NCBI GenBank assembly: GCA_030052745.1
Contig: JANBVO010000010.1
Span: forward strand, 310,001-374,000
Reading direction: 5' to 3'
DNA: 64,000 nt
Source of the DNA: Pleurostoma richardsiae
Lineage: Eukaryota; Ascomycota; Sordariomycetes; Calosphaeriales; Pleurostomataceae
Shown: one piece after another, positions 7,995 to 40,193 of the stretch
Numbering within the stretch: the first letter of the stretch is position 1
Layout of the letters: each line of letters starts with the position of its first letter
Position numbers and translations under genes: made by a program
Notes under the pieces: generated by a model
The model's input: the letters and a program-made list of their open reading frames with translations, nothing else
The model's database searches: none
Told to the model about the DNA's origin: nothing

Positions 7995-10900
7995 CTAAAC
8001 AGCAGCTGTAGTAGGCTTGTCGCCGCCTCCTCGCATCCAGCCGAAGAGGTCAGATTTCTGTCCATTACCCGCAGGTGCAGGGCCCTCGACCGGGGTTCGC
8101 AGCATCTGAGTCTCCCTCGGTTCGAGCAGGAGGCTCTTGCGGTAATACGATACCTGCACGTTGTTGCCCTGGGACTCGGCCTCCCGGACGCGGACGATCT
8201 GGGCCTGGATCCATTCCTGTAGCTCAGGAACCTCCGTCAACCGATATGGTATCTGGAACCGCTGAAGCTCACCAATGATCTTCGCGGTTCGCGTGTGCTT
8301 ATCAAAATTGACAACGGTCAATTCGCTGCTTCCGTCGGTACCAGGCAGCTGCTTGGTAGGGGGGTTGCCGATATCAACAAAGGTAAGGTCCGTCAAGAAC
8401 ATGCCCTGGAAGGGGAGGCAAGGTGGGACGTGGTCATGGAGACGCGCGCGCAAGACTTTGTTGTTCTGAGATGGCTCCACGATGGCTTGAAGCATCTTGA
8501 GCGTCTCCTTTCGCTTAGGGGAAATGATGTCCCAGGTCCTTCGGAGCCTGGTGATGGTCGAACTGTTCAAGCTGCAGATGATGGCCATGAGAGCATCATA
8601 GTTGTGGAGCTCGAGACATTGGTGTGCAATCTTGATCCACTGCTTGATCACGCTGGCGCGCTTCTTAACCTCGTTGTAGTGCAGGATCGTCTCTGCGACA
8701 AGATTCGACAAGTCTGTGGAGAGAGCGGTCATGGCCTTGACGTTGGGTGAGTCAACGCCGCCCCTCTTCATCCACTGTGAGCCAAGGAGTTCCTCCGGCA
8801 TGATTGAGCAGAAAATGCTCATTTGCTTAATCGTCAGCTGGCGCGCAACCTCTAGAGGATCGAAATCCAGCACGATGGGGCAGACGCCGCCTGTCTTCCA
8901 GTTGTGTAAGAAGTTAATCTGGCTCTTGCTAATATTGGGTGCTGGAAGAGGAGTATCGGCGGGGATGTATTGCGAGACAGAAGTATTGGTCTTGCCCATC
9001 GATGAGACAAGCCGTGGGACCAGAGTCGCACCACCCGTTGAGGCAACCCGCTGTGTCAGCTCCAGGAGGCGCTTACCAGCGGATGGCAGGACAGAGGCGA
9101 GATTGAATTCGGCGAACGGCTCAATGAGAGACAGCGCCTCCCGATCTGTCTCATCCCGCCAGTGCGACTCCAGCCACCCCTTGAAGACGTTGTAGACTCG
9201 TAGACGGACGGGAGCCGCCATGTGTGGAGAGTCACCAACATATTCGAATCGGTCGATGAGGGCCTCGGCGAGTTTGATTGGTGTGCAGAACAGTCTGAAA
9301 GTCAGGTAGAATGTGGAGACAAACATGGCATCAGGGGTGGATTCGTGGGTAGTTAATCGCTCGACCAACGCCGGGAGAGAACCACCAGTGACCTGGCCCT
9401 CTTTGTTGAACATCAGCTCGTGAGCAAATGTCTTCTCCAGAAGTTTCGATTCGACGTCATCAACCTCTTCGGCAAGCGTCGAGCTGCCCGTTGTACTTAG
9501 CTCGGACATAGATGGTTGGCTCTTCGGAACTAAGGCGTGATCGGGAGTAGTGGCTCGGGTGGACGTCCGCGATACGAGGCTCGCTTCTGAGTCTCGGCTG
9601 ACGTAGGAGCTGCCGGTTCCAGAGCTGGATGCCGTCATGCTCTCGGAGCGGAAGGAAGAGGTGAAATCGCTGTCATGACCAGCAGAATGCTCCGATGAGC
9701 TATATTCGTCTTGTGGGAGGAGCGTAGTGGACAGTCTCGGGAGAGGAGGCAACGCTGGCCGGAGCGAGGACACAGAAGAGGCCATGCTCGAGGCCGTATC
9801 CTCGACAAGAAGGGACTGCGGGCGAGAGGTAGTCGGGGAGCTCTGCGTCTTCACTACATAGGTGTCGGTATCGGCAGGAGACGTGATCTCTGGGACTTTG
9901 GGAAGAGGCTTATCGATCGACAAAGCCGGGGGGCGAGGCGCGTGTGCCGGAGACGCGGTCGCTGTAGTAGCTGCTGCGGGCGTCTCGGATACGGCTGATG
10001 ACGAGGCGTTGGACTCTACAACACTGGCAACATCGCTCATCGCGACGCTTTTTTCTTTCTCTTCCTCGATCATATCCAACACGTCAAGATCAAGATCGAT
10101 GCCGAAGGCACCGTTGTCGAACTCGAATTCAAAGTCGCCTATTCTCTCAATCACCCATTTCGTCTTCGCGACGCACTCGCCTGTAGCTCTCACACAGCCG
10201 GTGGCGGCATAGAGCAAACGGCTGTTGTCCTGGGGCATAATAACGTCGGCTACGTCCGGCTCGGCGTTAACCAGTATATCGCGCGCTGCATGCACCAGAT
10301 CTCGAATCCGGTCATACATGGCGGCTCGAGGCTCGTCCAGCAGCTCCTTCGTCAGCGAGCTGTGTGCGCACACAACGTCAACAACGACGAGGAGCTCTCC
10401 GCCCGAGGTTGCCGACTGTTTAATTGCCAGAGCCAAGTGTGGTCTCGACTGGGACTGCAGGTGTAATCGTCCAATGAAAGATCCAAGGTAGGACAGGAAA
10501 GTGTCATGACTGGCTGTCAAGCGTTCCGAAACCAGATTCTGCGGCCGCGACAGAGGTGACGGTCCGGCCAGTGAAACTCGGTGTGAGATGGTTGAAGACA
10601 AGCGATTGATTTGTATCGAACTGTTCTGAGACAGCCGGCGCGGATTTGTACCCGAGGTGTAGACGGCGGACAGGCGTTTGTTGGTGGGATTTGGCGTTTG
10701 TGCTGCGTCGCTTGGTCCCAGTGAAATGGCTTCGGCGGTCAGCCCAGTCGTATCCGCACGGGAGGCGGCATCAGCCATCTGCTGGCTACCGTCGAAGGAC
10801 CCCGAATCTGCAGGTGGCGTGGGCGGGATGTAGGACTCCTCGACCAGTGTGGCCATAACTGTTATTGCCGGCGCTCGCAACCGCCTGTCTTCCTCGAGGA

Positions 10901-11732
10901 CGTCCAAAAACCTTACTCCCTTAGTGACGATCCTGAACGCCTTCAAGATCATCTCGTCTATGATATCGTTCACGTCTTCGATCGGGTCCACCATTTTCTG
11001 ATGTTCTTGCAGCCGCTTTGCCGTCTTCACCAGCGATGACAATTCTGATAACAGGGATTTTCGACCTCTTCGAAGGCCATCATGTCTCTGGATGGTAGCC
11101 GACTCTCTGGTTAAACAATGTGTTCGTTCCTGTGTGAGTGTGAGTAAGGCATACGGCAAGGTACAGAAAGAGCGGTATGTTCGACTCACCAAGAGATACC
11201 GCACACCGGCAATGATGCCCTTCATGAATTCCTGGTTGCCAAAGATCTCGTTGTCAGTGACGGCCGTACTCCGCAACAAGTCCCAAAAGTTGAGCAGCGC
11301 CGTCAGCAAGTTGTGCATCTCCTCCGGTTCGTATGCTTCGCAGTAGTTTGTCGGCAGCCATCCTCGAGCCCCCGACACCAACAACGTCCCATCTGCCCAT
11401 CCATTGGTGTGTATCGAGTGCACCAGTATGACGTCTCCCTCGTTTAGAGGCAGCGTTACTGTCGAGTCGGTCATAGCATAGCTAGGGTGGAACGGATAGA
11501 AGGCCCGCAGGAAGTTATGGAAGACTGCGGGCGCGTTCGTCTGGGTGTTGAGGTCTTCCTGCGACCCGTTTGGCGTGGTCGGCGGCGTCATCTGCGTAGA
11601 GGTGTAGGGATGCGCCGTGATGGTCTGGTCGCTCTTGATGGACCCATTGTCCGCGTCGGAGCGAGACTTGTTGATCGAGAGAGGAGCCACTTGGAGGCTC
11701 GAACGCAGCGGGTTCTCGCTCAGCATTACCAT
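7995..11732 (-). CDS. Ras guanine-nucleotide exchange factor (Cdc25-like)
   Basis: Exons 11190-11732 and 7995-11129 with a 60-bp intron at 11130-11189 (GTGAGT...ACACAG), giving about 1,225 residues. An SH3 domain lies near residues 72-135 ('AFYPFHPSYAM', 'GWLPTNYCE'). A Ser/Thr-rich middle follows. Then come a RasGEF N-terminal module ('FVSTFYLTFRLFCTP') and the catalytic CDC25 domain at roughly residues 960-1190 ('DPLEVARQLTIKQMSIFCSI', 'PCLPFQGMFLTDLTF'). These proteins load Ras with GTP at membranes and feed cAMP/PKA or MAPK signalling. The SH3-RasGEFN-RasGEF order is the classic fungal Cdc25 layout. The intron is a multiple of three and contains no stop, so an unspliced message would encode 20 extra residues within the region after the SH3 domain. 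The frame stays open upstream to about 11,874 without an ATG, so a further 5' exon is possible. Confidence 0.93.
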   Translation of the reverse strand: MVMLSENPLRSSLQVAPLSINKSRSDADNGSIKSDQTITAHPYTSTQMTPPTTPNGSQEDLNTQTNAPAVFHNFLRAFYPFHPSYAMTDSTVTLPLNEGDVILVHSIHTNGWADGTLLVSGARGWLPTNYCEAYEPEEMHNLLTALLNFWDLLRSTAVTDNEIFGNQEFMKGIIAGVRYLLVSRTYRSFCTLPYALLTLTQERTHCLTRESATIQRHDGLRRGRKSLLSELSSLVKTAKRLQEHQKMVDPIEDVNDIIDEMILKAFRIVTKGVRFLDVLEEDRRLRAPAITVMATLVEESYIPPTPPADSGSFDGSQQMADAASRADTTGLTAEAISLGPSDAAQTPNPTNKRLSAVYTSGTNPRRLSQNSSIQINRLSSTISHRVSLAGPSPLSRPQNLVSERLTASHDTFLSYLGSFIGRLHLQSQSRPHLALAIKQSATSGGELLVVVDVVCAHSSLTKELLDEPRAAMYDRIRDLVHAARDILVNAEPDVADVIMPQDNSRLLYAATGCVRATGECVAKTKWVIERIGDFEFEFDNGAFGIDLDLDVLDMIEEEKEKSVAMSDVASVVESNASSSAVSETPAAATTATASPAHAPRPPALSIDKPLPKVPEITSPADTDTYVVKTQSSPTTSRPQSLLVEDTASSMASSVSSLRPALPPLPRLSTTLLPQDEYSSSEHSAGHDSDFTSSFRSESMTASSSGTGSSYVSRDSEASLVSRTSTRATTPDHALVPKSQPSMSELSTTGSSTLAEEVDDVESKLLEKTFAHELMFNKEGQVTGGSLPALVERLTTHESTPDAMFVSTFYLTFRLFCTPIKLAEALIDRFEYVGDSPHMAAPVRLRVYNVFKGWLESHWRDETDREALSLIEPFAEFNLASVLPSAGKRLLELTQRVASTGGATLVPRLVSSMGKTNTSVSQYIPADTPLPAPNISKSQINFLHNWKTGGVCPIVLDFDPLEVARQLTIKQMSIFCSIMPEELLGSQWMKRGGVDSPNVKAMTALSTDLSNLVAETILHYNEVKKRASVIKQWIKIAHQCLELHNYDALMAIICSLNSSTITRLRRTWDIISPKRKETLKMLQAIVEPSQNNKVLRARLHDHVPPCLPFQGMFLTDLTFVDIGNPPTKQLPGTDGSSELTVVNFDKHTRTAKIIGELQRFQIPYRLTEVPELQEWIQAQIVRVREAESQGNNVQVSYYRKSLLLEPRETQMLRTPVEGPAPAGNGQKSDLFGWMRGGGDKPTTAAV

Positions 11733-20265: not shown

Positions 20266-21686
20266 TCAGATTGGTGCATAGACGAAGCCCAGCTGGTCGA
20301 CCTCGTCGCCATCCTGCCCCAGGAACCCCACGATCTGCCACTCATCCGGCGCCTCGAACGCCACGCAGTCGCTAGTCGTCGCACCCGCGCTGAGCGTGCG
20401 GCCAGCCGATGTCGTCGCCTCGATGTAGAAGATGCGCGTGTGGTCGTTGTACTGCCCCTCGCACAGCGTCGCCGCCGTCCAGTACTCCGCGCTGCCGAGC
20501 GTCAGGCTCGCGGCCGTGCCGCCGGTGCCGCCGTGGCTGAAGACCGTGCCATCGGCGAGGGTGAGGCCCACTGCGTCAACGCGGCTGCCGCCCCGGAAGG
20601 ACAGCACCGACGCCTTAGGCGCAGAGAGGTCGGCTAGGGTGGGCACGTCGCTGAACCACGTCCCGTGCGGGCCGCCGAAGTAGGACGACTGCCGCAGCGC
20701 CGCGCCGGAGGTCCAGGTGAAGTTGACGTTGACGGGGTTGTGGTCGGACAGCACGCTCCCGTCGGACTGCAGGAACATCTCGCTCGCGTAGTGGAACACC
20801 TCGGCGGACAGCGAGACAAGCGGGCTGCCGCGGTAGAAGACCTTGTCGACGGTCTCGCAGTAGTCGGTCGTCGAGGGGTTGTCGCACAGCGTCTCCTCGG
20901 TGGGCACGACGCCGCCGCGCTCGAGCTCGACCCACGCGTCGGTCATCCCCGGCCCGGAGGCGTTGAGCGTCGCCAGCAGGCCGCGGATGCCCGTGTCGAC
21001 GGTCCGGCTGTAGCGGCTGTTGGTGTCGCCGAAGATGAGCACCGCGTTGCCCTCGCTCCAGGCCGCGATGTAGTCCGCCACCTGCTGGATGTTGGCGGAG
21101 CGCGCGACGTTGTCGGCGTCCTCGGTGCCGGCGTCGGCGTGCAGGTTGTACAGGTCCGCGTAGACGGAGGTGGTGTTGGAGGCGGAGATCTGCAGGCGCA
21201 TGAAGGTGAAGCCCTTGGGCGTCAGGCAGTCGTACTCGGAGGCGTCGGAGCACACGTCCCACTTGATGCGCGTGAAGTCCACCCAGTCGAAGTTGGACAG
21301 GGTGTTAAGGCCCGAGCCGAAGGGCACCCCGCCGGACGTTGCGGTCCGGTAGGGGTGATCATCGGTGGCGTAGATGTACGCGTGGTAGTTGAAGTCCTGT
21401 CAGGGGGTGAGCCTCCGAGCCGTCATCTTCCCCCCACGGCGGATCTTTGCACGCTCACCTCCTGGACGTGGATCACGTCGTAGTCATATTCGGCAAAGTA
21501 CGACCCAATGGTCCCGGCGTTGGTGGCCTTGTCGCCGGGAACGTCATTGTCCTGCAGGATCTCCGGCAGCCCGGCCACGTTCATGGACAGAATGCTGAAG
21601 GCGCCGGCGGTCGGTGCTGCAGCCAGGGTCCCCCGAGCTGCAAGAAGGACCCCGAGAAGCAGGGGGTTGAAACCGTGAGTCCGCAT
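20266..21686 (-). CDS. Secreted DNase I-like protein with jacalin-like lectin domain
   Basis: Exons 21459-21686 and 20266-21396 with a 62-bp intron 21397-21458 (GTGAGC...TGACAG), giving 452 residues. I chose the start at 21686 because it gives a good signal peptide (hydrophobic 'FNPLLLGVLLAA', cleavage near 'TLAAAP'). The endonuclease/exonuclease/phosphatase fold is shown by 'SMNVAG', the metal-ligand Glu in 'HVQE', 'YNLHADAG', 'FGDTNSR' and the catalytic 'SDHNPV'. From residue ~315 a Gly-rich beta-sandwich ('GGPHGTWFSD', 'SFRGGSRVDAVGLTLADG') looks like a jacalin-like lectin. The pair suggests a secreted phosphodiesterase (nuclease or sphingomyelinase type) directed to a glycan surface. The substrate cannot be told from sequence. 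Confidence 0.85.
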
Positions 21687-28455: not shown

Positions 28456-29565
28456 TCACAGGCACTGGGAGTAGTACGCATTCGAGTACTTGCACGTGTA
28501 CGGCGAGGCACACACCGTGCAGCCACTGAATCCCTGGCCGCCGCACTGCGCCCACTGGGAGGCGGTACATGTGGCACTAGGTGCCGCCGATGAGGTGCTG
28601 CTCGGCTTGGTCGATGTTGCCACGGTCGAGGTCGTCAGGGTTGTCGGCTTCGAGCTGCTCACAGACGTTGAGGATGGGACAGAACTAGTGCTACTGATGT
28701 CTCCAGTTGAGCCTATGATAGCCTGTCAGTCGTCTGCTTTACCCGGCATCATTCTCATACGGTGGGATAACCACTTACCCCCTGGACCCGAAACGCTCGT
28801 CGTCAAGCTCCCACTCTCGACATACACCCCCGAGAAGTACAAGTCCTCGTCCGCATCCGCGTACCCATCTCTCGGCAGCTCCAGCACCCCGAGGTGCCAG
28901 TCCGCGCCGTTGCTGCTCGTGCTCGCCGAGACGGGTGCCACAGTCTGAACCAGCGGGTCCGCGCCGGTCGAGTGCCAGAACCCGACGGTGCCGGCTGAGA
29001 AGTCGATCTCGTACGCGACGTTGTGCCACACGTCGGCCGCCCACTCGACGCTCCACTTGCTCTGCCCGCCGACCATCCACTGCAGCTTGGAGTCCGACGT
29101 CGCCTGCTCACCGCTGATCCAGCCGGCCTTGAGCTCCGTGAAGTGGCTCTCGAAGAAGGCGATCTGGTGCTCGCGGTAGATGGAGGGGGCGTTGGTGTCC
29201 GAGCGCTTGATGCTGAAGTGGTAGTACACCTTGCCCTGGTTGATGGCCGCCGAGGTCTGCGGGATCAGCTCCGTGCGCCGCATGGTCTGGCCGTTCCAGT
29301 AGGCGGTGCTGTCGAGGGTGATTTTGACGCCCTGCTTGGAGGAGGTATCGGCGGGGTTCTTGTAGTCGGGCGAGAGGTTGACGTAGGCCGTGACCGCCGA
29401 TGAGCCGTGGATGTAATACTGGTACGGCCCGACCTGGTTGGACCAAGACCAGTTGTTGAGGTCGGCGGATGAGGAGAGGTCGTTGAAACGCCCGTCCCAG
29501 AGAATGGTGCCCGCGTAGGTCGTCGAGACAGATGCTGCGAGTGCAGGCAGGAGTGAGGTCTTCAT
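28456..29565 (-). CDS. GH131 beta-glucanase with C-terminal CBM1
   Basis: Exons 28779-29565 and 28456-28712 with a 66-bp intron 28713-28778 (GTAAGT...ATCATAG), giving 347 residues. A signal peptide covers about residues 1-18 ('[18 protein letters not shown]'). The body matches GH131: '[11 protein letters not shown]', '[15 protein letters not shown]', 'TMRRTELIP', '[16 protein letters not shown]'. A Ser/Thr-rich linker begins close to the splice junction. It leads to a fungal cellulose-binding module with the Cys pattern and aromatic residues of CBM1 ('[13 protein letters not shown]', ending 'YYSQCL'). GH131 enzymes show broad beta-1,3/1,6- and beta-1,4-glucanase activity on plant or fungal glucans. 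With CBM1 attached, a role on cellulose-rich plant walls is likely. It has three other secreted-type enzymes within 17 kb. Confidence 0.92.
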
Positions 29566-30334
29566 CTTCGAAGCGGGTGCCAGGTCCGGGGCGGGCTGGT
29601 CAGTAAGAATGAGGAAATGCGTTAAAGGATTAAGAGTGTCTCCAAGACAAAAGAAACCGAAGATGTTCTCTTTTATCTCATCAGGCTCCCAGTCACCAGC
29701 TCTAGATTAGGTGACTTCAGGGCCTGAGAGCATTCCCACACCGGGAAGCCGGTCGCAGTAAGGTATCATTAATATTCATTAGTTGGTTTCATGACCCGGA
29801 TTTTGGGTCGCTGTTACACCGTGGAGATTGATAGCAACGGCATGCTCATCGCGCCACGCATCAACGGGCCGCTCTGAGCAGACGCAAAGGAGATAGAATG
29901 CCGGGAATGTAGCGCCATCGGAGGAGAAGCCGAGATTGTCCGTTTCGAGTAAGCCCGGTGGGTTGGGGCTTCAGGGGGGATTTCGGTGCATGCCGGGGTG
30001 GACGGAACAGTGCAACGGAGGGCATCCTCCGTCTCTTGAAAATGCACGAATGAGGAGAGGATAAGATGGCGCTTCCGCGACACCATCCTGTCCTTGCTGA
30101 AGACTGAAACGCTACGCTTGCGCCAGTGTCCGCAAAGCCTGGAGCATCGATATTCATGGCCTGTGAGGCTGACGCCAAAGCTCGAGACGAAACCCGGAAT
30201 CTCGTGATGGCGACAATGATGTCATATCCCTTCAAGGCAACGCCGCCCGTGTCGATGGACGAGACAGTGTTCTGGGCGTGGAGGCTCTAGAGGATTGGAG
30301 GGCTTGACCTGGACTGTCCGGCAAGACCGAATTC
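29566..30334. other. Intergenic, GH131 promoter region
   Basis: Holds the upstream region of the GH131 gene and the 3' UTR of the tubby-like gene. Short open frames only; none is recognisable. Confidence 0.45.
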
Positions 30335-31225
30335 CTAAGATGCGGCGGAATTCGAATTCTGCCTCCGGTCGTGATCCCAGATGCCCAGGGCCGTCATGAC
30401 CGCCATGACCGCCCATCTCTCACCCAGGTCACCAGTGGCGCCGACGCCAGTGAACTCGAACTTGAGCACCTTGCTCAGGCTCATGGCCGCCTTCACCCAA
30501 ACCGCCACCACCTCGAGCCCGTCGCCCGCGACCGGTCCCGCCACGCCGCCGCTGGCGCCGGCTGCGGCGCCGGTGTCGCCGGCCATGCGCACGAGCTTCC
30601 ACCCGAAAGACGCGCCGGCCAGGCGGCCGACCTCGGCGCCGTGGCTCCGCCGCCACTCGAAGCGCTCGCGCCTCATGCCGCGTGGCCCGCCGGGCCGGTC
30701 GACCTCGACGGAGAAGGTGTAGTTGGACTGCAGCAGGCCGGGGAAGCGCACGAACTCGTCGCGCGGGAGGCGGTCGCCGGGCAGCGGGGGCAGGGTGACG
30801 GTGAAGCTGCGGCTGAAGCGCTCGTGGTTGAGCACGGCCAGCGGCGGGAAGTCCTCGGTCGGCCCGCCGTGCAGCACCAGGTCGGGCTGGCCCGACCAGC
30901 CGGTGTGCGGGCGCACGGCGTACAGCGGCTGGCCCTGGTGCTCGCCCAGCGAGTAGTTACGCGAGAAGCCGCCCTCGCGGTAGACGCTGAAGGACGGCGG
31001 GAACTGCCGGTTGATGGTCGCCTTTTGGGCCGAGGCCGGGCCGGCCTGGGATGCCTGCTGCTGCTGCTGCTGCTGCTGCGACGGCGGCGGGCGGTGGTTC
31101 TGCGTCACCGGCGGCCTTGGCAGCCCCGAGGGCCTGGTGGTGGGCCGGACAGCCTCTTCGTATGAAGGCGGCGGCTCATCCTCATTGAAGGGAGGAGGAT
31201 CCTTGATCATGGCTGCGGTGGTCAC
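30335..31225 (-). CDS. Tubby/LURP-like fold protein with PPxY motif
   Basis: Single exon of about 296 residues; the ATG at 31225 and that at residue 6 are both possible starts. The N-terminus is Pro/Gln-rich and disordered, with 'PPPSYEEA' (a PPxY motif that binds WW domains, as in Rsp5/Nedd4 ligase adaptors) and eight consecutive Gln. From residue ~75 to the end the sequence has the spaced aromatic and Gly pattern of fungal tubby C-terminal-like/LURP-one proteins: 'PLYAVRPHTGWSG', 'FEWRRSHGAEVGRL', 'FGWKLVRMAG', 'VVAVWVKAAMS', 'LGERWAVMAVMTALGIW'. The domain call comes from family resemblance and is moderately sure. Function is unknown; a membrane-lipid or adaptor role would be inference. 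Confidence 0.65.
   Translation of the reverse strand: MTTAAMIKDPPPFNEDEPPPSYEEAVRPTTRPSGLPRPPVTQNHRPPPSQQQQQQQQASQAGPASAQKATINRQFPPSFSVYREGGFSRNYSLGEHQGQPLYAVRPHTGWSGQPDLVLHGGPTEDFPPLAVLNHERFSRSFTVTLPPLPGDRLPRDEFVRFPGLLQSNYTFSVEVDRPGGPRGMRRERFEWRRSHGAEVGRLAGASFGWKLVRMAGDTGAAAGASGGVAGPVAGDGLEVVAVWVKAAMSLSKVLKFEFTGVGATGDLGERWAVMAVMTALGIWDHDRRQNSNSAAS
31055..31078. repeat. CTG/CAG triplet tract (coding, polyGln)
   Basis: Eight perfect CTG units on the plus strand, read as eight CAG glutamine codons in the tubby-like protein. Confidence 0.95.
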
Positions 31226-33164
31226 GAAGTGCCGCTCTTATGTTGACCGCAAGATAAAGGAATGAAAATGAAAATGCCATTGCCGATGAATGAATGCTGA
31301 CGATTGACGGAAGTCCGGCTTGAGCTGATGACGAGTTACGTAAGCGCTTCCGTGTCAGGAACAACAAGGGCAGAAAGACCGCATGTTCACGAGCCCTTCC
31401 TCCTCACACCCCAATGGAGGCAGCCTTGAGCTGCAGCAGAACTTTATTTAAGCGGCAGATTACAATGTGGGTAGTCTTTATGCGTATAGACGACACAAGT
31501 CCGGGCCGTAGCTCCCTCGGGTACTTCTCAGAGGACAGTTGGAAAATCCCAGTGCCGAGCATGGCCCGGATGGCCAGATCATGCCTCCCTCCCTTAACCG
31601 GCTGTGCGCCAGATGTAAATTATCCGCAACGGAGTTGGGGCGTTCTCTGGCTCTCTCTTTCTCTAATTGCCATAGGAAGAGAACAACTTCCTCATAAGCT
31701 ACAGGCACCGCCACTAAACCCCCGGGAGAGCAGACGTACCGACAGGGCACGATCCCCTCCGGCCTGAGACTCTCGGTAACACAATTCGTAGGATCGATAC
31801 CAGCAGTGGGCACCGGATCCATGCCGAGTCTACCAAGCATCATCCTGCGCCGCACGCTCGATTCGAATTTGGTCTTTCAAGAGGCACGCCCTCTACCACA
31901 AGGAACCACACGAGCTCCATATCGCCTTCCTCGAGACGCCCAGCGCATTGGTCGCCTTAACATGATTCTTGACGCACCGCGAGTGAGAAATCTCGCCCAG
32001 GGCAGCTATCTAGGGCTCGCGCAGCGTGGACCAGAAGAAGGCAGGCTCATTGTAGGGCCGGACCTGCCTATCGATTCGTTGTTCTATGCGCCCAGGGGTT
32101 CGCGCTCGAGGATCTTCCTCGCCGAGAACGGCGTTGTCGTGGTAGCGGGCCAGTCAGAAACTGTCGTGGCTGATATGTCAAGGGTGTTGGCCTCTGGTGC
32201 AGTCCAGGAGGAACAAGGCAATGGGCGTGTCGTTGCAGCCTGGTGGCGATGTTAATGGCCGTCCTTGAAGACTGCGTCTTCCATTATGAGCCGCGAGGTC
32301 TCCATGGGAAGATCCATGAGAAAGGCGCGCTCTACTTGGTGATTGCTCTGGTCTATGTTGTCCCAGTTTCATGCCTTTGACCAGAGCGGACGTCATGGTC
32401 CCCCCTCCGGCGGGGATGTCCCTCGAGGCACTTCTGCTTCAGCAGGAGCCAAAAGAGGTGGCGACCGACGATCGTGAATCTATACCGAGACAGTTGACAA
32501 GCGGCTGCGCTGAAATTATTGGAATCGTCAGACAGATGCAGAGTCGGCGTCTGCCTCGGGACACATGTTCGTCGCATTGGCTCCCTCGCCCCTGCGTATG
32601 TCAGTGACGGAACATAGGGATACTCTGTTGATACTCGCTTCTTCCCCCATTTACACTTCCGCCACCACAGCAAAGTGCCATCGAATGCGCGCAGGACGGA
32701 GGCGCTAGTCCAGGCGGAACGACATATCAAGCTGAAGAGGAGCCTTCCCCGAAGTCACTTAAGAGGGGAAACCCGGACGTTCAGACCAAGTGTCAGACGC
32801 AAGCAGCAAGATCGCCAAAAACACGCACAAGAAGAGCATGTGCAGGACACCCTCAAGGCATAACAACCGAGATAGCCATTCTCATTGGCCATATCTAGCA
32901 GAAGGAGTGTAAACAGGCCCCGACCAATTCATACCATAATATGCACGAGACCCATCATAACCCCCAGCAGCTTCTCAATACTGCCGTGCCGCCCAAGAAA
33001 CATGAATGCCCCATATATACATGCTGGGCAGGAACAAAAACGCCTACCAACGCCTGCCCACGGCGGGGCTATATGCACCGGAGGAAAGGACAGGCGACAA
33101 GAGAACCCCATATATAATACCCTCACCCCACGCAAAGCTCGACAGAACGCAGCTAGTAGGCGTC
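31226..33164. other. Intergenic, holds one doubtful open frame
   Basis: Between the tubby-like gene and the GH76 gene, both minus strand. Apart from the frame at 31821-32255, I see nothing that resembles a gene or element. Confidence 0.4.
31821..32255 (+). CDS. Possible small hypothetical protein
   Basis: An ATG-started frame of 144 codons on the strand opposite to its neighbours. Its composition is protein-like, with segments such as 'LAQGSYLGLAQRGPEEG' and 'IFLAENGVVVVAGQ', but no domain is recognised. It could be one exon of a gene, a decayed gene or chance. Confidence 0.25.
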   Translation: MPSLPSIILRRTLDSNLVFQEARPLPQGTTRAPYRLPRDAQRIGRLNMILDAPRVRNLAQGSYLGLAQRGPEEGRLIVGPDLPIDSLFYAPRGSRSRIFLAENGVVVVAGQSETVVADMSRVLASGAVQEEQGNGRVVAAWWRC

Positions 33165-34857
33165 CTACAGCCCCTGCGCCTTGAGCGGCGACATCACCAT
33201 GGGCGCCTTGCCCTTCTCGTCCGCCCACGACCCGCTCTCGCCTTCGCCCGTGCTCATCCACAGCAGGATGGAGATGAGCGCGATGATGGCCACCGCCGTG
33301 AGCACGCCGGCGCCGGCGCGGTCCTTGGCCGTCGCGGGTATGTCGGTGGGCGAGTACACGTCCGGGTCGCCGCCCGCGTTGGGGTCGCCCTTGCTCGTGC
33401 CGCCGCTGCCGCTCGTCACCGGCGACGACACGTCCTCGTAGTCGACCAGCAGGCTCAGCAGCGCCCCCAGCGCGTTCATCTGCTGGCCCGCGCCGGTGTT
33501 GCCGTCGTACGCGCCCGTCGTCCACCGGAAGCCGCAGGTGCCGTCCGGGTTGCACGCGTTGGCGGCCCCGGCGGCCGAGGTCTTGAGCGTGGTCATGATC
33601 GTGTCGTGCATGAAGGGGGCCATCTGGGTGGTCTGGGCGAGCCAGCGGTGCAGGTAGCCCTTGAAGGACAGCATGTCGGTCGTGCACTGGACGTTGTTCT
33701 CCAGCTCACAGGACCGTTCCTCGGCGACGCCGTTAGGGAAGAAGATCTCCAGGGTCTGGTTGGTGAGGTGCTGGAGGTGGTCGGCCCACTCCGAATCCCC
33801 GTTCGTCTATCATGCAGTGTTAGTCAACGCATGCGTGCTATGGCGGATAAGGGCCATGTACTCACGTAGTTATACATGAATCCGCAGCCCTGAAGATAGG
33901 CTGCAGCGACGTAGGAGAACTGTGCCCTGTTGATATCAGTGCAATTGTGGTCCACGTGCCCGCCGTCGAAGATGTTGTAGTTGGCGTCAATGTAGCCGAC
34001 ACTCATGGTCCAATCCCAGGCTTTGACGGCCCAGTCCGCATATGTGGCATTTCCCGTGTACCGCGCAAGCCGCGCAGCGATGTTGAAGAAGATGCCGTTC
34101 GTGATGCTGTTCTTGTAGTCGTAGCCGTTGTTCGAGAAGGGGATCTGCCACCGCAGGCCGCCGTTGCAGTTCTCCGTGTCCCAGCGAGCAGCCTGCGTGT
34201 TGAAGACAGCCTGTGCGAGGGCCAGCCACTGAGGCTCGTCTGAAGGGGGATCCTGGAAATTCGTCTCAGCGGCCAGCATGGCGGACAAGCCCCAGAAGCC
34301 CTGGTCGTCGTTCCCCAGCGAGGCCGTCCAGTTGGGCGGCATGTAACTATTCTGCGGCGCTCCAGCCTGGAAGACGAGGCAGTATTCAGTCAGGTTGTTG
34401 TAAGTGGTGTCGCCCGTGTAATGCCAGTAATCGACCATTGTGCCCCAGAGCGCACCGCCTTCCCACCAGTAGTACGGCCCCGCAGGTGGAGGGCCGGGTA
34501 GGATGCCGGGCGTCTGGCCAGACTCGTTGCCATGATAGTAGGTCAGAAGGTTGTATGCGATAGTGTTGGCGGCGGCCTTGATCGAGTCTGCATCAGTGTT
34601 AGCAGGTGTCCGAAACAGGCGGAAGGATCGCAACTGCAGCAAGGCTGGCCGGCCTGTCCTGTCCCACCCTGTCCGACCGTCGCATGCGGCGGGGCAAGCG
34701 GACTGGAGCGATGCTGCTCCTGCTGTGCTGCCATCTCAGCGCAAACCCGAGGGAAGATAAACGTACCGGCATTCGTCAGATCGACATCTATGGCAGCGTT
34801 GGCCCAGCTGGCGCAGAGGCCGAGAGCCAGGGAAGCGAGCGCGGCTGTCCTCACCAT
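33165..34857 (-). CDS. GH76 mannan endo-1,6-alpha-mannosidase (Dcw1/Dfg5-like)
   Basis: Three exons: 34767-34857, 33866-34587, 33165-33806, with introns of 179 and 59 bp (the second has a perfect CTAAC branch site). The protein has 484 residues. A signal peptide covers about residues 1-21 ('ALASLALGLCASWANA'). The GH76 fold shows in 'YYWWEGGALWGTMVDYWHYTGD', split by family-typical spacing, and the catalytic Asp pair in 'GNDDQGFWG'. Further family motifs are 'DTENCNGGLRWQI', 'ITNGIFFNIAARLARYTGN' and 'SFKGYLHRWLA'. The C-terminus has a Ser/Gly/Asp-rich stretch, then a hydrophobic segment ('GVLTAVAIIALISILLW'), then a short polar tail. That tail suggests a membrane anchor or unusual GPI signal. 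These enzymes process GPI glycans and link mannoproteins into the cell wall. Confidence 0.92.
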
Positions 34858-36011
34858 GTTGTTGTGCGTGTAGGACTATTTGGTGATGTTTCGGTTGGTA
34901 GCAATCGTGGTTTTTACTGTCGCTTTGCGCTCTGAGCGTCGCGACAATGCAGAGGACGAGTGGCGGCGCCTGGGTCCATTCGAGGGTGTTTGGACTCGAG
35001 CAGGACAGGCGTAATACAGGCTTAAAGGACCGCGCAAGGGCTGGGAGAGAAGAGGTGAAGGAGGTGGAGGAGGTGGAAGAGTCGGGAAAACAGGCGGGAG
35101 GAATGACGATCAAGCGAAATCCTGGTCGCGCAGTTGGTGGTGAGATGATGTACCCCCCAGCCGCACCGTGGCTTACTATTCGCCCAGCCCAGTTGGGGAC
35201 AAGCCAGAGCAGTCAGAGCAGCGAGACAGCAGAGCAGAGCATCTGCTCGTATTCCTGGGCCGATCCAACCCCGCCTTGCCCCTTCCAGGCCAAGCCGCGC
35301 CGGATTCCGACTCCGTTTCTCGTCCGTTACTCGTCCGCTTCCTGCCCGGGCGGAGACCTCGACCAAAAACAGCGCGCTAGTCCTGAATGGGCTGTGGCGT
35401 CAAAGCTTAAAGAGCATGCTTCTCCCGTATCAAGAATAGCGTCATGCCCTATGGGGAAAAGGCCTTTCCTGTCATATTACGCTTAAAATAAGGTAAGCCC
35501 GTCGCGCGATTTCTGTCTCTCTTCCCGTGTTCGTGAAATACGAACAAGTAATTAATCACAAGATCCTTCGCTTCCTTCCGACCTCGTTTCTCCCTCCCGG
35601 CTGTAAATCCAGGTAATCCGGATGACTGATTACCGTCCCAGCATACTCTCGTCTCTGTTGAATGTTGACGACCTCAAAAGGTCATCAAGATCAGCCCTTC
35701 CATCCTCAGCCTCTTCGCCCGCTGCTCGGTACTCCGTGATACATGTCCCGTCTGTCTAGGAAGCGCGACATATGTGAAGCTTTCTGCCTTCATTCTTCAT
35801 GACAACGCGTTCCGCGTCGGCGCTAGATATGTCTGTCTTAACGTCATCTGACACGACGCGGCTCGTGTCGTCGTTTCTAAAATCATCCTGTCTAGAATAC
35901 GGGTGTACAATGGTCCCGCTGGTTGAATATGGTCTCTCTATTCAGGGCTATATAGTCAGTCTATCGGCTTGATTAGGCGGCGTCTCCCAGTCAGAGGCTT
36001 CTTGAGCCTAG
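34858..36011. other. Intergenic, GH76 promoter and GH43 3' flank
   Basis: About 1.15 kb. It contains purine-rich runs near 35,040-35,100 and a lower-GC part from 35,450 to 35,600. No gene recognised. Confidence 0.45.
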
Positions 36012-37781
36012 TCATGACGAGTACGCTACTTCAGGGATCAGCTCCGTCTCCGAGATATACTGCGCGGCACCCGCATATCTCCACCGCTTGAAGTAAGCGT
36101 TGCCGCCTTCCGGACAGTCCAAGCCTGTTCCGGCTCCGTTGCACGTTGCATATGCGCCCACCAAGCTCCCCACAAACGACCCGTTGCCGCCGCTGACCAG
36201 GCCCGCCGACGCCGATCCGACGATCAATTTGGCGTTCGGGTTCGAGGCCGGCATGACAGCAAGGCTATAGTGCGTCGCGTTGACGGTCTGGATCTCCAGG
36301 CGGATCGGGCCATCAGCCCAGCCCGTCGGCACGGGGACGATGTTTGGCGCAGGCGGTGTGCCGGTGCCCTCCGCACGGAATCTGAAGGAGAGCTGATTCG
36401 CTGGGCCCCTCTTCTTGCCCTTCGAGCAGCGCGCCGGGAGCAGCACTACGCCGAGGTCGATATGATTGACCTGCGTGAGGAAGACGGTCACGCCCGCCTC
36501 CTGGCCCACTGCCTCGGGATTGAATGACAGGTCGACGCTGAAGGTGAACAACGTATCCGTCTGCCGGCGCCCGATGAACGCCAGGCCCCGCTGGCCGCTG
36601 AGCTCGATTGTCTCCTCAGACAACGGCGTCCCGGTCAGATTGTTCCGGCTAGGCACGATCTGCAGTCCCTTGGCGGTCGTGGAGAAGGCGCCTTCCCGCG
36701 GGACGCGCCAGTGGACCAGGTTTCTTGGGATAGCAGTGTCCGTCTCGAAGTCGTACACGTCCGGGTCCGAGTTAAACGGGCCGTTCCCGGCCAAGGCGCG
36801 ACTGGTCGGCGGGAGCGTCCAGCCGCTCATCTTGCCCCTGACTGGCTGCAGCACCGGCCAGTCGCCCTCCTCCCACGTCACCGGGAAGAGCACCGTCTCG
36901 CGGCCCATCGGGTACACCTCCCAGTCCGGGCCCGAGCGCGTCGCAAGGGACACGCCCCACCAGTTTCCGTCTGCGTTCTGGAACAGGTCGCCGTGGCCCA
37001 CGGTCTGGAAGTACTCCTGCGTGCCGCGGTTGGTCAGGATCGGGTTGCCCGCGTAGGCCTCGTAGGGGCCCGTGATTTTGCGCGACCGGGCGATGGTGAT
37101 CGAGTGGTCCAGCTCCGTGCCCCCCTCTGCTATCATGAGGTAGTACCATCCGTCCTTCTTGTAGATGTGCGGGCCCTCGGGCCACACCCCGCCCGTGCCG
37201 TTCCAGATGCTGACCCCTGGCTCGCTCAGCTCGCCGGTCTCGAGGTCTAGTTCGTGCAGGGTGATTCCCTGCAAGGCGGCGTACACCTTGCCGTCGTCGT
37301 CCCAGAACAGGTCGGGGTCGATGCTGGTCGGGTGGAAGATGACGGGGTCACTCCAAGCTCCGTCGTCGAACGGGTCTGCCGCGCTGAAGACGACGCCAAG
37401 GTTCCCGGCGTCCATGAGGTACTCACAGATGACGTAGAAGACGCTATCGTGGTGCCGGATGGTGGCCGCGTACATGCCCTGTTGCTGGCCGGTCGTGTTC
37501 CAGCTAGCGCCAGGGAGTTGGCTGTCACGATTCCATGCGTGACTGATGAGCTTCCAGTCCGTGAGGTCCTTGGAGGCATAGATGGGGAGTCCGGGAAAAG
37601 ATATGAAGGTTGAGGTCACGCAGAAGAAGGTCCCGTCGACCTGAGTGCAGGACGGGTCAGAATGCCAGCCGGGGAGGATCGGGTTGTAGTAGGTTGAGTT
37701 AAGGGATCCGGAGAGGGATGCCACCTGCCCGAGGGCAAGGAACAGTGAGACCAAGCCCGTGAAGAGCTTTATGGTCGACAT
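36012..37781 (-). CDS. Secreted GH43 glycosidase (beta-xylosidase/arabinofuranosidase type)
   Basis: Single exon of 589 residues with a signal peptide (hydrophobic residues ~5-21, cleavage near 'VASLSG'). The five-bladed propeller of GH43 is indicated by 'NPILPGWHSDPSC' (general base Asp42), 'PTSIDPDLFWDDDG' (Asp155, pKa modulator) and 'WPEGPHIYKKDGWYYL' (Glu202, general acid). From about residue 330 a second domain has the concanavalin-like beta-sandwich pattern usual at the C-terminus of these enzymes ('LAFIGRRQTDTLFTFSVDL'). Several NxT/NxS sites fit secretion. Such enzymes release xylose or arabinose from hemicellulose; the exact sugar cannot be set from sequence. Length and domain order are normal for the family. 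Confidence 0.92.
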   Translation of the reverse strand: MSTIKLFTGLVSLFLALGQVASLSGSLNSTYYNPILPGWHSDPSCTQVDGTFFCVTSTFISFPGLPIYASKDLTDWKLISHAWNRDSQLPGASWNTTGQQQGMYAATIRHHDSVFYVICEYLMDAGNLGVVFSAADPFDDGAWSDPVIFHPTSIDPDLFWDDDGKVYAALQGITLHELDLETGELSEPGVSIWNGTGGVWPEGPHIYKKDGWYYLMIAEGGTELDHSITIARSRKITGPYEAYAGNPILTNRGTQEYFQTVGHGDLFQNADGNWWGVSLATRSGPDWEVYPMGRETVLFPVTWEEGDWPVLQPVRGKMSGWTLPPTSRALAGNGPFNSDPDVYDFETDTAIPRNLVHWRVPREGAFSTTAKGLQIVPSRNNLTGTPLSEETIELSGQRGLAFIGRRQTDTLFTFSVDLSFNPEAVGQEAGVTVFLTQVNHIDLGVVLLPARCSKGKKRGPANQLSFRFRAEGTGTPPAPNIVPVPTGWADGPIRLEIQTVNATHYSLAVMPASNPNAKLIVGSASAGLVSGGNGSFVGSLVGAYATCNGAGTGLDCPEGGNAYFKRWRYAGAAQYISETELIPEVAYSS

Positions 37782-38520
37782 GGTGAGTTGTGATGACGGC
37801 TTTGTAGCACCTGTACTCCCGGTGGAAGTTGAGCCTCAAGCCACTCACCCATCCACCGCTCTGAACATGGACACGAATTTATCGTGCTTGTAAGTGGAGG
37901 TATCAAATCACGTCGGTATACTTACCCGCAGTTTCTCCGCAAGGATCAGCAGATCCCCTGGTCGACGTAGCACCCGTGCATTTAGCCTGTTGGCCAGACC
38001 TGGGGAAACGATCGTTGCTCCGCATCTTCCCCATGTTTGGCGTAGCGGTTGTTCTTCGCATTACACCGAGAGAACCGAACAGCCCGGGCACAGGAGTAAG
38101 TCATCCTTATAGATGGGAGAATCTTGTGATAACCGAAGGAGACCCCAGGAAGATATGACTTTTCGAGCAGCTCGTCTCGTGACACCAAAATCAACGGAAT
38201 CATAAGCAGAGATTGAATACAGGAGGATGGATATGATGTGCTACCCCAACAACCAACTAACCAGGGCTATCTTTTTCGCTTTAACAACATAACTCAACTC
38301 GCCCAGCTACTCTTTGAGTGGCGGCAGTTGACTAATTCGCCAAGAGCGCCTCTCCTTGCCCTTCCTCTTGGACTGGTTACGGTACTTCAGGGCCTCGGGT
38401 GCGTGAGGTGACAATGTGGCTTTCCCGTGGCGAACGCACCTCGTCGATCACTTCCTCTGCACTCTGGAAGCTGGTCAAGTTGCATTCCACAGAATCAGCA
38501 CAAGTCCTTCCGAGAAGGCC
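37782..38520. other. Intergenic, GH43 promoter and downstream remnant of the STAND-N/Rho-like gene
   Basis: Holds the GH43 upstream region. On the minus strand, just beyond the stop of the STAND-N/Rho-like gene (about 38,410-38,490), a short stretch resembles the end of a Rho domain ('VECNLTS', 'EEVIDEV'). This suggests that the coding region was once longer. Confidence 0.4.
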
Positions 38521-40193
38521 TTATATTGGTCCAAGCTTCCGATCTCCCCTTTGGGGAACTCTCAGATCTTCTTTTGGGTGTTTGATACCCGCGCTTATCA
38601 CGGGAATGTCTGCGCAGTACCAAATTTCGGGGAGCCATGCTTTTGCTAGATTGTTGAAGGACGCCGCCTGGTCGATCAGTCCACAGATCACGATTACCTC
38701 TGCGCAGAGGTAAATTAAAGGCCGCAGACGATGATAGGTGTCCATGCCTGCAATATCGAAGATCATCAGCCTACATACCTCATCATTGAACCTGCATCGT
38801 GAAGATGTTAGCCAGAACATCGAAGCAGGCGGTCGAAGGAGAATCAAGCGACATGGGCAATGAGACTTTCAGAATACTCACACGACCGTTAAGACGTAAT
38901 TATTCTGTACTGTTGGGGGTAATTGAGCCTTGTAGGGTTTCCTGGCGACGTACCTGTGTATCAGAGGGGATTCGTAAGTTGTCGAGTCTCTAACCACAAC
39001 CACCCTATCATCGATGTCAGGCCATTAACTGCACTCAGCACGAGGCTAAATTCTGTTATGTTGACTTACTTGGTATCTGCTAGCTCAAAATCAACCAAAC
39101 CAGCGTCCCCGAAGCTAGACAACGACTTATCCCCTGCAGCAGATTCAATTTCCTCGGTGCCAATAGATGGGTCAGTCGTAGACCGCAGCCAGGGCGTAGG
39201 GAGTTCCCTGCCAGACAACAGGCTGCCGAAGGCCAGGCCCAGCCCTCTTTTGCTGATATCGTCCACTGTGACCGGAATCCGGAAGACAGACACGATAGAG
39301 ATATCGTTCAGACTCAGTGTGGAAAGGACACTCCAGCCACTGGACTGCATTGTGTAACTCGAGATAGACTTGTCGCATTCGTCGGAGCGGACACGTCGGT
39401 ACACCCAGGATGCCTCAAGAAGGACCTCAAAGTCGCGCGAATCCAGTGGAGATCTGGGTGTCTGCTGACTGCTGTTCTCACGGTTCGGTGTATCTAGGAC
39501 GGTGGTGCTTCCGGTGGTTATGGTCTTTCTGCTCATAACTGACTCAGTTCCCGTGAGCCTGACCAATCGTTCCTCGTCATTGAGAACAGTCTCGAGCTTT
39601 TCTAGCCGCGTCGTGAGATCCACGTTCTGTCCAAGAACATTTTCCAGCGTTTCTTGTAGCCTGTCACGGTCCCGTAGAGCCTCGAGGTCCGATCGACTGT
39701 GTCTTGGTTTTAGCCGGGTCTATTCAGACCGGACGTGCCAAGCAGGGGCATGAACTCACCATCTCAGGATGCTCATCATAAGCGTCAAGCAGGACCTCTG
39801 GGATTCCAGCCGCGGCAGCAGGCGGGCAATCTTCTTCTCGCTCTCGCCCAGTGCCCAGCGCAGCCGGCTGGTAAGTCTGGCATCGGTGACGAACCGGTCA
39901 CACACCACCGACTCAAGTTCGGTCAGGATAATGGTGCACTGGGAGAACGTGATGGTAATGTGATCCAAGCGAATGAGCGCTTTCCTGTCTGGTGGCAGGG
40001 TCTCTACGGCGTCCATCAGCTGCTGCACCTCTATGAGCGCCGACTTCATCTGCACCACCTCCGCGAGGGTGGCCTGGACAATTTCGGGCGCGTTGGACAC
40101 GCTCGCCGTAAAGCCCGACAGCACCGTATAGATCTTTCTAGCCGCAGCCACCAGCCCGGTGATGGAGGCTGCGATGCTAAGGGGGTCGGCCAT
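38521..40193 (-). CDS. STAND N-terminal domain fused to a degenerate Rho-like GTPase
   Basis: Four exons: 39760-40193, 39070-39696, 38882-39004, 38521-38791, with introns of 63, 65 and 90 bp. All phases agree and the total is 484 residues. Residues ~1-180 match the fungal STAND N-terminal domain ('MADPLSIAASITGLVAAARK', 'RWALGESEKKIARLLPRLE', 'MSILRC' across the first junction). A middle region ('YRRVRSDECDKS', 'WSVLSTLSLNDISIVSV') is also usual there. From residue ~352 the sequence follows Rho-family GTPases: 'KVVVVRD', 'PTVQNNYV' (switch I), 'DIAGMDTYHRLRPLIY' (Rho 'DTAGQEDYDRLRPLSY'), 'SFNNLAKAWLPEI'. The P-loop GxxxxGK[ST] is gone and the G4 (T/N)KxD is altered. It is therefore likely not a GTP hydrolase. 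The domain ends about 60 residues early. It is either a pseudo-GTPase signalling protein or a decaying gene. Confidence 0.75.

Follow-up and report, generated by a model that had tools for sequence, protein, structure and literature searches.

A gene in a 64-kb stretch of the Pleurostoma richardsiae genome (64,000 nucleotides, positions 310,001 to 374,000 of contig JANBVO010000010.1; hereafter the window) encodes a protein in which a HeLo-like/PigL_N-like helical module is followed by what appears to be a captured Cdc42 domain without the motifs for GTP binding and hydrolysis. The gene lies at 40193-38521 on the minus strand, on an 865-kb contig of a 39.4-Mb genome, and by the sequence of its homologs it belongs to a family of such fusions in Sordariomycetes. 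We consider it reasonably likely that the protein is a nucleotide-free mimic engaging the partners of Cdc42. This reading rests on the loss of Gly15 in the family, the retention of Lys16 and most of the switch regions, the absence of a membrane anchor and an N-terminal module (N-module) held in common with Cdc24-like guanine nucleotide exchange factors (GEFs).

Four exons join in phase to give 484 codons and a TAA stop, and the three introns between them (63, 65 and 90 nucleotides) are all GT-AG, as an earlier reading of the DNA made from its letters alone (the sequence-only reading) had set them out. The deposited model P0001 (NKR23_g4304, Pleurostoma richardsiae, 400 residues) is identical to the 484-residue product through residue 399, and therefore uses the same three introns. 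Its end, a prediction, fits one further intron at 38778-38700, with a single fitting acceptor found (leading into AGG TAA). This intron, with GTATGT as its donor, would remove switch II, and homology disfavours it. We also considered whether the fusion itself is a prediction artefact, which was rejected because the three introns are common to P0001 and the same domain order recurs in relatives.

The claim of a Rho-family core held up in profile and PDB searches: Pfam Ras (PF00071) matched residues 354-465 with 51.8 bits (cut-off 21.6, E 9.1e-14), and the best PDB match of the Rho part alone was Cdc42 (E 2.6e-16). Alignment to the intact Cdc42 encoded elsewhere in this genome (own Cdc42) likewise bore out the lost P-loop, the replaced switch-II Gln and the altered G4. 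The G1 motif GDGAVGKT has become RDSTTYES, switch I VPTVFDNY reads PPTVQNNY, the G3 motif DTAGQ is DIAGM, with Met at position 61, and TQVD of G4 is replaced by IKHP at 115-118. Arg stands in place of Gly10, which is Gly in 30/30 listed relatives with a letter there, and Glu in place of Lys16, so that Gly10, Gly15 and Lys16 are all lost. No CAAX box is present at the C-terminus of the 484-residue product, which ends KLGPI. The Rho half is like Cdc42 in sequence, predicted fold, best PDB matches and the positions and phases of its introns, but unlike Cdc42 the protein has no Walker A motif, Gln61, G4 or CAAX box, carries this domain behind a helical N-module and ends before G5. With these changes, the broken Cdc42-like switch is probably unable to hold nucleotide.

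A protein search returned at least 27 homologs at E<=0.01 and a profile search at least 42 at E<=1e-5. Relatives among the matches listed come from Fusarium, Colletotrichum, Podospora, Lasiosphaeria, Immersiella, Cladorrhinum, Naviculisporaceae, Neoarthrinium, Bombardia and others. From these matches we compiled 33 proteins with the N-module and at least part of the Rho-like region, omitting P0001 as the window's own model, P0022, P0039 and P0040, whose models have no Rho part, and P0025-P0027 and P0041-P0044, which have other architectures. The 33, four of which bear the name 'cell division control protein 42' or '42-like', are 380-604 residues long (26 of them 525-604) and include the partial or aberrant models P0002, P0003, P0032, P0035, P0036 and P0038, so that n varies by position. 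An intact P-loop, GxxxxGK[S/T], occurs in 0/33 and is present in own Cdc42 and human Cdc42. Gly15 is kept in 1/31 and is replaced mainly by bulky residues (Met in 14, Leu in 8), Lys16 is kept in 28/31, Asp118 of G4 in 3/31 and the Ser of G5 in 0/31; Asp57 (29/30), Tyr64 (26/29) and Leu67 (26/30) persist. Since many of the 33 are closely related, we clustered them at 80% identity, and among the resulting 16 representatives Gly15 is found in 1 and Lys16 in 14. None of the 33, some of them partial models, has a CAAX box at its C-terminus. P0017, the member that has changed least, is identical to own Cdc42 at 13/13 switch I and 16/16 switch II positions, and its P-loop is two residues short. The extreme of the family is P0023 from Podospora conica (598 residues), which has a heavily degraded P-loop and whose GTPase part gives no Pfam Ras match at E<=0.1, yet aligns partly around switch II.

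The motif loss is common to the Fusarium, Colletotrichum and Sordariales relatives, and the complete absence of intact P-loops from the 33 indicates that loss of the GTPase is a trait of the family and not decay of the window copy. The sequence-only reading had suggested looking in related genomes for such a fusion whose P-loop is intact, and none was found among the matches listed. It had also proposed the recent decay of an active paralog. For the GTPase motifs this was rejected, given the absence of an intact P-loop among the 33 relatives and because a search of the own genome revealed no further copy of the fusion: four of its ten matches are exons of the window gene, and the rest are Rho-like exons and one N-terminal match (contig C13). 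On this pattern of conservation, the broken state of the Cdc42-like switch looks purposeful, not accidental. It is very unlikely that these proteins are atypical working GTPases that tolerate the P-loop changes and still bind nucleotide. The frequent retention of Lys16 and Asp57, and of Asp118 in three members, would be in keeping with such activity, but Gly15 has mostly given way to bulky residues, G4 and G5 are altered in nearly all members, the P-loop carries a deletion in P0017 and is badly eroded in P0023, and the window copy lacks Gly10, Gly15 and Lys16 together.

We then compared residue sets on the surface of the Rho-like domain, scored as identity to own Cdc42, using lists of nucleotide-contact and GEF-contact residues. 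Of the 16 representatives, 14 were included, P0038 and P0002 being too short. In these 14, nucleotide contacts are identical at 55/201, all positions at 888/2241 and GEF contacts at 113/203; the corresponding values for the window copy are 3/12, 45/129 and 9/14 (hypergeometric P 0.018 for the GEF contacts). Four ordinary Rho paralogs from the own genome, used as controls in the form of raw tblastn pieces that include exon-edge letters, gave 47/60, 362/669 and 45/54. Ordinary Rho proteins therefore keep both residue sets, whereas the fusion family as a whole keeps only the GEF set. Taken singly, 5/14 representatives show an excess of GEF contacts at P<0.05, as do all four paralogs, and 4/14 (P0014, P0021, P0023 and P0034) show none; the GEF-contact residues also serve effectors and other regulators.

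A laboratory counterpart exists in engineered nucleotide-free Rho proteins (Rac1 and RhoG G15A, PMC3253119), in which the same Gly15 is lost and which most family members match in keeping Lys16. Rac1 G15A cannot bind GDP or GTP and has a high affinity for GEFs (PMC3253119). The Cdc42 chain 9vm2 has, by its letters, Ala at the Gly15 position, the same loss as in the family. Like these proteins, the pseudo-Cdc42 domain would bind Cdc42 partners, most likely a RhoGEF. Such binding would either dampen polarity signalling through Cdc24 and Cdc42 or make the domain a bait that triggers the N-terminal module when disturbed. In contrast to engineered G15A Rho, the family is natural, fused and further changed, the window copy is without Lys16 as well, and GEF binding is putative. 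The Pleurostoma copy has gone beyond its relatives in losing Gly10, Lys16 and the C-terminus, and may keep only a partner-binding stub or be disappearing. Across the sampled species, the family has lost the very glycine that is mutated in laboratories to trap RhoGEFs. If the mimic reading is correct, it would tie fungal non-self and cell-death modules directly to the machinery of polarity and cell fusion, and the family would supply natural reagents and a clear test of integrated decoys outside NOD-like receptors (NLRs).

PseudoGTPases unable to bind nucleotide have been described in small number (PMC5593906). Its class (i), represented by p190RhoGAP pG1/pG2, CENP-M and the fungal dynein light intermediate chain, likewise combines a GTPase fold with lost G motifs (PMC5593906). 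The fusion family differs from this class in its apparent derivation from Cdc42, its partly kept switch surfaces, its other partner domain and its taxa.

The introns bear on the origin of the Rho half. In own Cdc42, one intron splits the Lys codon before beta1 (AA/G, phase 2) and another splits Met45 (AT/G, phase 2); the window introns in Lys354 (AA/G) and Val395 (GT/G) lie in the aligned codons and in the same phase. The third intron of own Cdc42 follows GAT GAG (GAT GAG/GTATGC), and behind the window TAA, at the same position, GAC GAG is followed by GTGCGT. As introns 2 and 3 match those of Cdc42 in position and phase, they indicate that exon capture from a Cdc42 gene gave rise to the Rho half. 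It would have been taken from genomic Cdc42 without the first coding exon, which the N-module replaced, and capture through matching phase-2 introns would be the simplest account. Trees were built from the window protein and 13 relatives, with Bombardia added to the N-module tree and own Cdc42 to the Rho tree. In the Rho tree, nodes around own Cdc42 have supports of 29-42, so that the pseudo-Cdc42 domains may or may not form one clade and may have been captured once or several times. The summed tree length is 11.35 for the Rho half and 7.86 for the N-module over nearly the same taxa; by this measure, evolution has been faster and less even in the Rho half than in the N-module.

The product of the window gene is ended by an in-frame TAA before G5, with the loss of about 55 C-terminal residues by alignment to Rac1 (query residue 129 of 130 corresponds to chain residue 136), close to the 60 or so estimated in the sequence-only reading. 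The Rho-like residues that it had noticed downstream of the stop were recovered as well: the segment that follows the TAA reached 11.8 bits (E 0.035) against a C-terminal profile of relatives (14 of the 33) and own Cdc42. This was the highest score in a comparison with 2000 shuffles and 3454 window pieces, equalled solely by a piece from the same locus. An extra intron hiding the TAA was considered and judged less likely, as the G4-G5 stretch is about as long as in P0004 (hand count) and a nonsense change is simpler. Recent decay does fit the C-terminus, with a Cdc42-like segment and a donor at the Cdc42 intron position behind the in-frame stop; a recent C-terminal truncation of the window copy is likely, and a complete loss of its function is possible.

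The same observations bring up the possibility that the gene is dying in Pleurostoma, with the Rho half a relic and only the N-module, roughly the deposited 400-residue model, being made or of importance. We hold this to be a tentative alternative with appreciable weight. Besides the stop codon with Cdc42-like sequence and a donor at the Cdc42 position behind it, the loss of Gly10 and Lys16 in addition to Gly15 would fit such an end, as would the low GC content at third codon positions in the Rho part (0.53, with 0.80 in exon 1 and 0.60 in exon 2), the long Rho branch (1.48) and the models of Bombardia P0002, the closest relative among the matches listed, which also ends after switch I, and of Neoarthrinium P0019, which ends near G5. 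However, 131 Rho codons are open, switch II is recognisable, all three introns are GT-AG, 9/14 GEF-facing residues are retained, and the Rho branch of Lasiosphaeria P0021, a 546-residue model, is as long (1.60).

The N-terminal half of the protein is less readily classified. Residues 1-190 are helical in the predicted structure of P0001 (block pLDDT, the predicted local distance difference test, 72-98), and their match to PF17111 (PigL_N), a family termed HeLo-like in fungal NLR work (PMC9815663), scores 11.4 bits, below the cut-off of 27.2 (E 0.21). The relative P0026 passes with 38.9 bits, and it is through relatives such as this that the label of an N-terminal domain of signal transduction ATPases with numerous domains (STAND) can be given to the window protein; of the proposed STAND domain fused to a pseudo-Rho, the fusion stands, and the STAND part holds through relatives. 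A fold search with the N-domain returned no match at E<=0.001, and in comparison with the HeLo/MLKL fold its VIA-align scores fall within the helical-bundle background. The protein has in common with HeLo-like/PigL_N domains the M(A)DPLSIAAS... start, a predicted all-helical bundle and relatives that pass the cut-off. It differs from NLR-related proteins with such domains in its score and in having no nucleotide-binding NLR core: no Pfam match to NACHT or NB-ARC was obtained at E<=1 in the 484-residue product, on which ground membership in the STAND/NLR proteins was rejected. In the metagenomic relative P0025, the N-module is followed by an MIT domain (PF04212, 41.3 bits).

The same N-module occurs on other polarity proteins. 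In P0041 of F. vanettenii, it is followed by CDC24-calponin and RhoGEF matches, both below cut-off. A search with P0041 gave at least 158 proteins at E<=1e-5, and many of the 120 examined carry PF06395, PF00621 or the PH domain PF15411; CDC24 and RhoGEF are both above their cut-offs in P0130, P0133, P0134, P0045 and P0158. Both N-module marks were found by regular expression in 102/120 listed proteins of the P0041 type and 35/36 of the pseudo-Rho type, the two linker expressions differing, with the second looser and neither bound to position. A Ras-like domain follows in 5 of the 120 (P0130, P0134, P0145, P0154 and P0158), which thus join N-module, CDC24-calponin, RhoGEF and Ras-like domains, a Ras-Cdc24 relay, in one chain. 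None of these five Ras-like domains has a Walker A motif: P0134 reads GGGGTGTG and P0158 GGVDVDKS, in P0130, P0145 and P0154 the Ras profile match begins at position 18-21, past the P-loop. P0145 has one string resembling Walker A, at residue 699 and hence not within the Ras match (795-939). Among 28 species with the pseudo-Cdc42 fusion, a hand count of species names in clustered listings gave at least 12 that have a Cdc24-like fusion too, although such fusions are widespread in the group in any case. Pleurostoma departs from this, with one canonical Cdc24 and no Cdc24-like fusion found.

Polarity signalling runs in the order Ras-Cdc24-Cdc42. Its counterpart in S. pombe is Ras1-Scd1-Cdc42 (PMC8146680). 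Three successive components of this pathway are thus joined to one module, which would suit an integrated decoy: the pseudo-Cdc42 domain would be the bait, and a non-self factor attacking Rho or its GEF would cause the N-module to trigger a death or non-self response, with the Cdc24-like and Ras-like fusions serving as decoys for the other steps. A pseudo-GTPase sensor or decoy was among the earlier proposals, and it is supported as one live option, though in our view a doubtful one. Apart from the pathway components, the HeLo-like standing of PF17111 in fungal NLR work (PMC9815663), the proposal of a CHK2-derived kinase as such a decoy in Sordariales NLRs (PMC12258605), and the faster and more uneven evolution of the Rho half all speak for it. 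On the other hand, the product has no NACHT/NB-ARC match and its PF17111 score is below cut-off. We also know of no attacking factor, which counts against a decoy. In a broader and speculative form, which we likewise think improbable, one HeLo-like module carried on dead or diverged Ras, Cdc24 and Cdc42 would make up a decoy system of filamentous fungi outside NLRs, in which dead Cdc42 and Ras would be natural nucleotide-free traps for GEFs or other partners, guarding or throttling the genuine pathway when hyphae fuse or meet non-self.

We also considered the big Ras GTPases, of which TBRG-1 of Trichoderma virens is likewise a large fungal protein that contains a Ras-superfamily domain whose G4 is poor (PMC8146680). 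As described in that paper, TBRG-1 keeps G1, G2, G3 and G5, whereas the window protein has lost G1, and for this different motif pattern the assignment was rejected. Among the openly licensed PMC papers listed, titles and abstract openings showed none that describes the fusion. Both pseudoGTPases and HeLo-like domains were already known; their combination, the origin by exon capture and the link to Cdc24-like and Ras-like fusions appear to be new.

Table 1. Features of the pseudo-Cdc42 fusion gene and its immediate surroundings, in window coordinates
Feature	Position	Strand	Basis or remark
Exon 1 (codons 1-144 and two bases, ATG start)	39760..40193	-	most of the helical N-terminal domain; same in P0001
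HeLo-like/PigL_N-like helical N-terminal domain, about residues 1-195, includes intron 1	39546..40193	-	predicted model of P0001
Intron 1, 63 nucleotides, GT-AG	39697..39759	-	agrees with P0001
Exon 2: end of N-domain and low-confidence linker	39070..39696	-	exon chain
Conserved linker motif SLNDISIVSVFRIPVTV	39264..39314	-	looser form in pseudo-Rho and Cdc24-like fusions (alignments, regular expressions)
Intron 2, 65 nucleotides, phase 2 in Lys354 (AA/G)	39005..39069	-	position and phase of the first intron of own Cdc42
Exon 3: Cdc42-derived beta1, P-loop region, switch I	38882..39004	-	exon chain, PDB match, alignment
Degenerate P-loop RDSTTYES	38968..38991	-	own Cdc42: GDGAVGKT
Intron 3, 90 nucleotides, phase 2 in Val395 (GT/G)	38792..38881	-	equals second intron of own Cdc42 (Met45, AT/G)
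Exon 4: switch II to about alpha4 of the Cdc42-like domain	38521..38791	-	ends in TAA at 38523-38521
Alternative intron fitting the 400-residue model (GTATGT...GCGCAG, then AGG TAA)	38700..38778	-	compared with P0001
Switch II DIAGMDTYHRLRPL (Gln61 to Met)	38716..38757	-	alignment to own Cdc42
Remnant of the last Cdc42-like segment, same frame behind TAA (ECN-type G5)	38440..38520	-	profile score
Splice-donor-like GTGCGT behind GAC GAG	38434..38439	-	position of the third intron of own Cdc42

Rfam and transfer RNA scans of the window gave no matches. Downstream of the pseudo-Cdc42 gene, the next gene encodes a GH43 protein (36015-37781), which clusters on the minus strand with other carbohydrate-active genes, GH76 (33827-34642) and GH131 (28729-29565), over 28729-37781. 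A jacalin-like lectin domain lies behind a partial endonuclease/exonuclease/phosphatase domain at 20269-21327 on the minus strand. Finally, about 27 kb from the pseudo-Cdc42 gene, a large open reading frame on the minus strand (7998-11732) matches RasGEF and RasGEF_N, with SH3 below cut-off, and by its domains would be a Cdc25-like Ras exchange factor.
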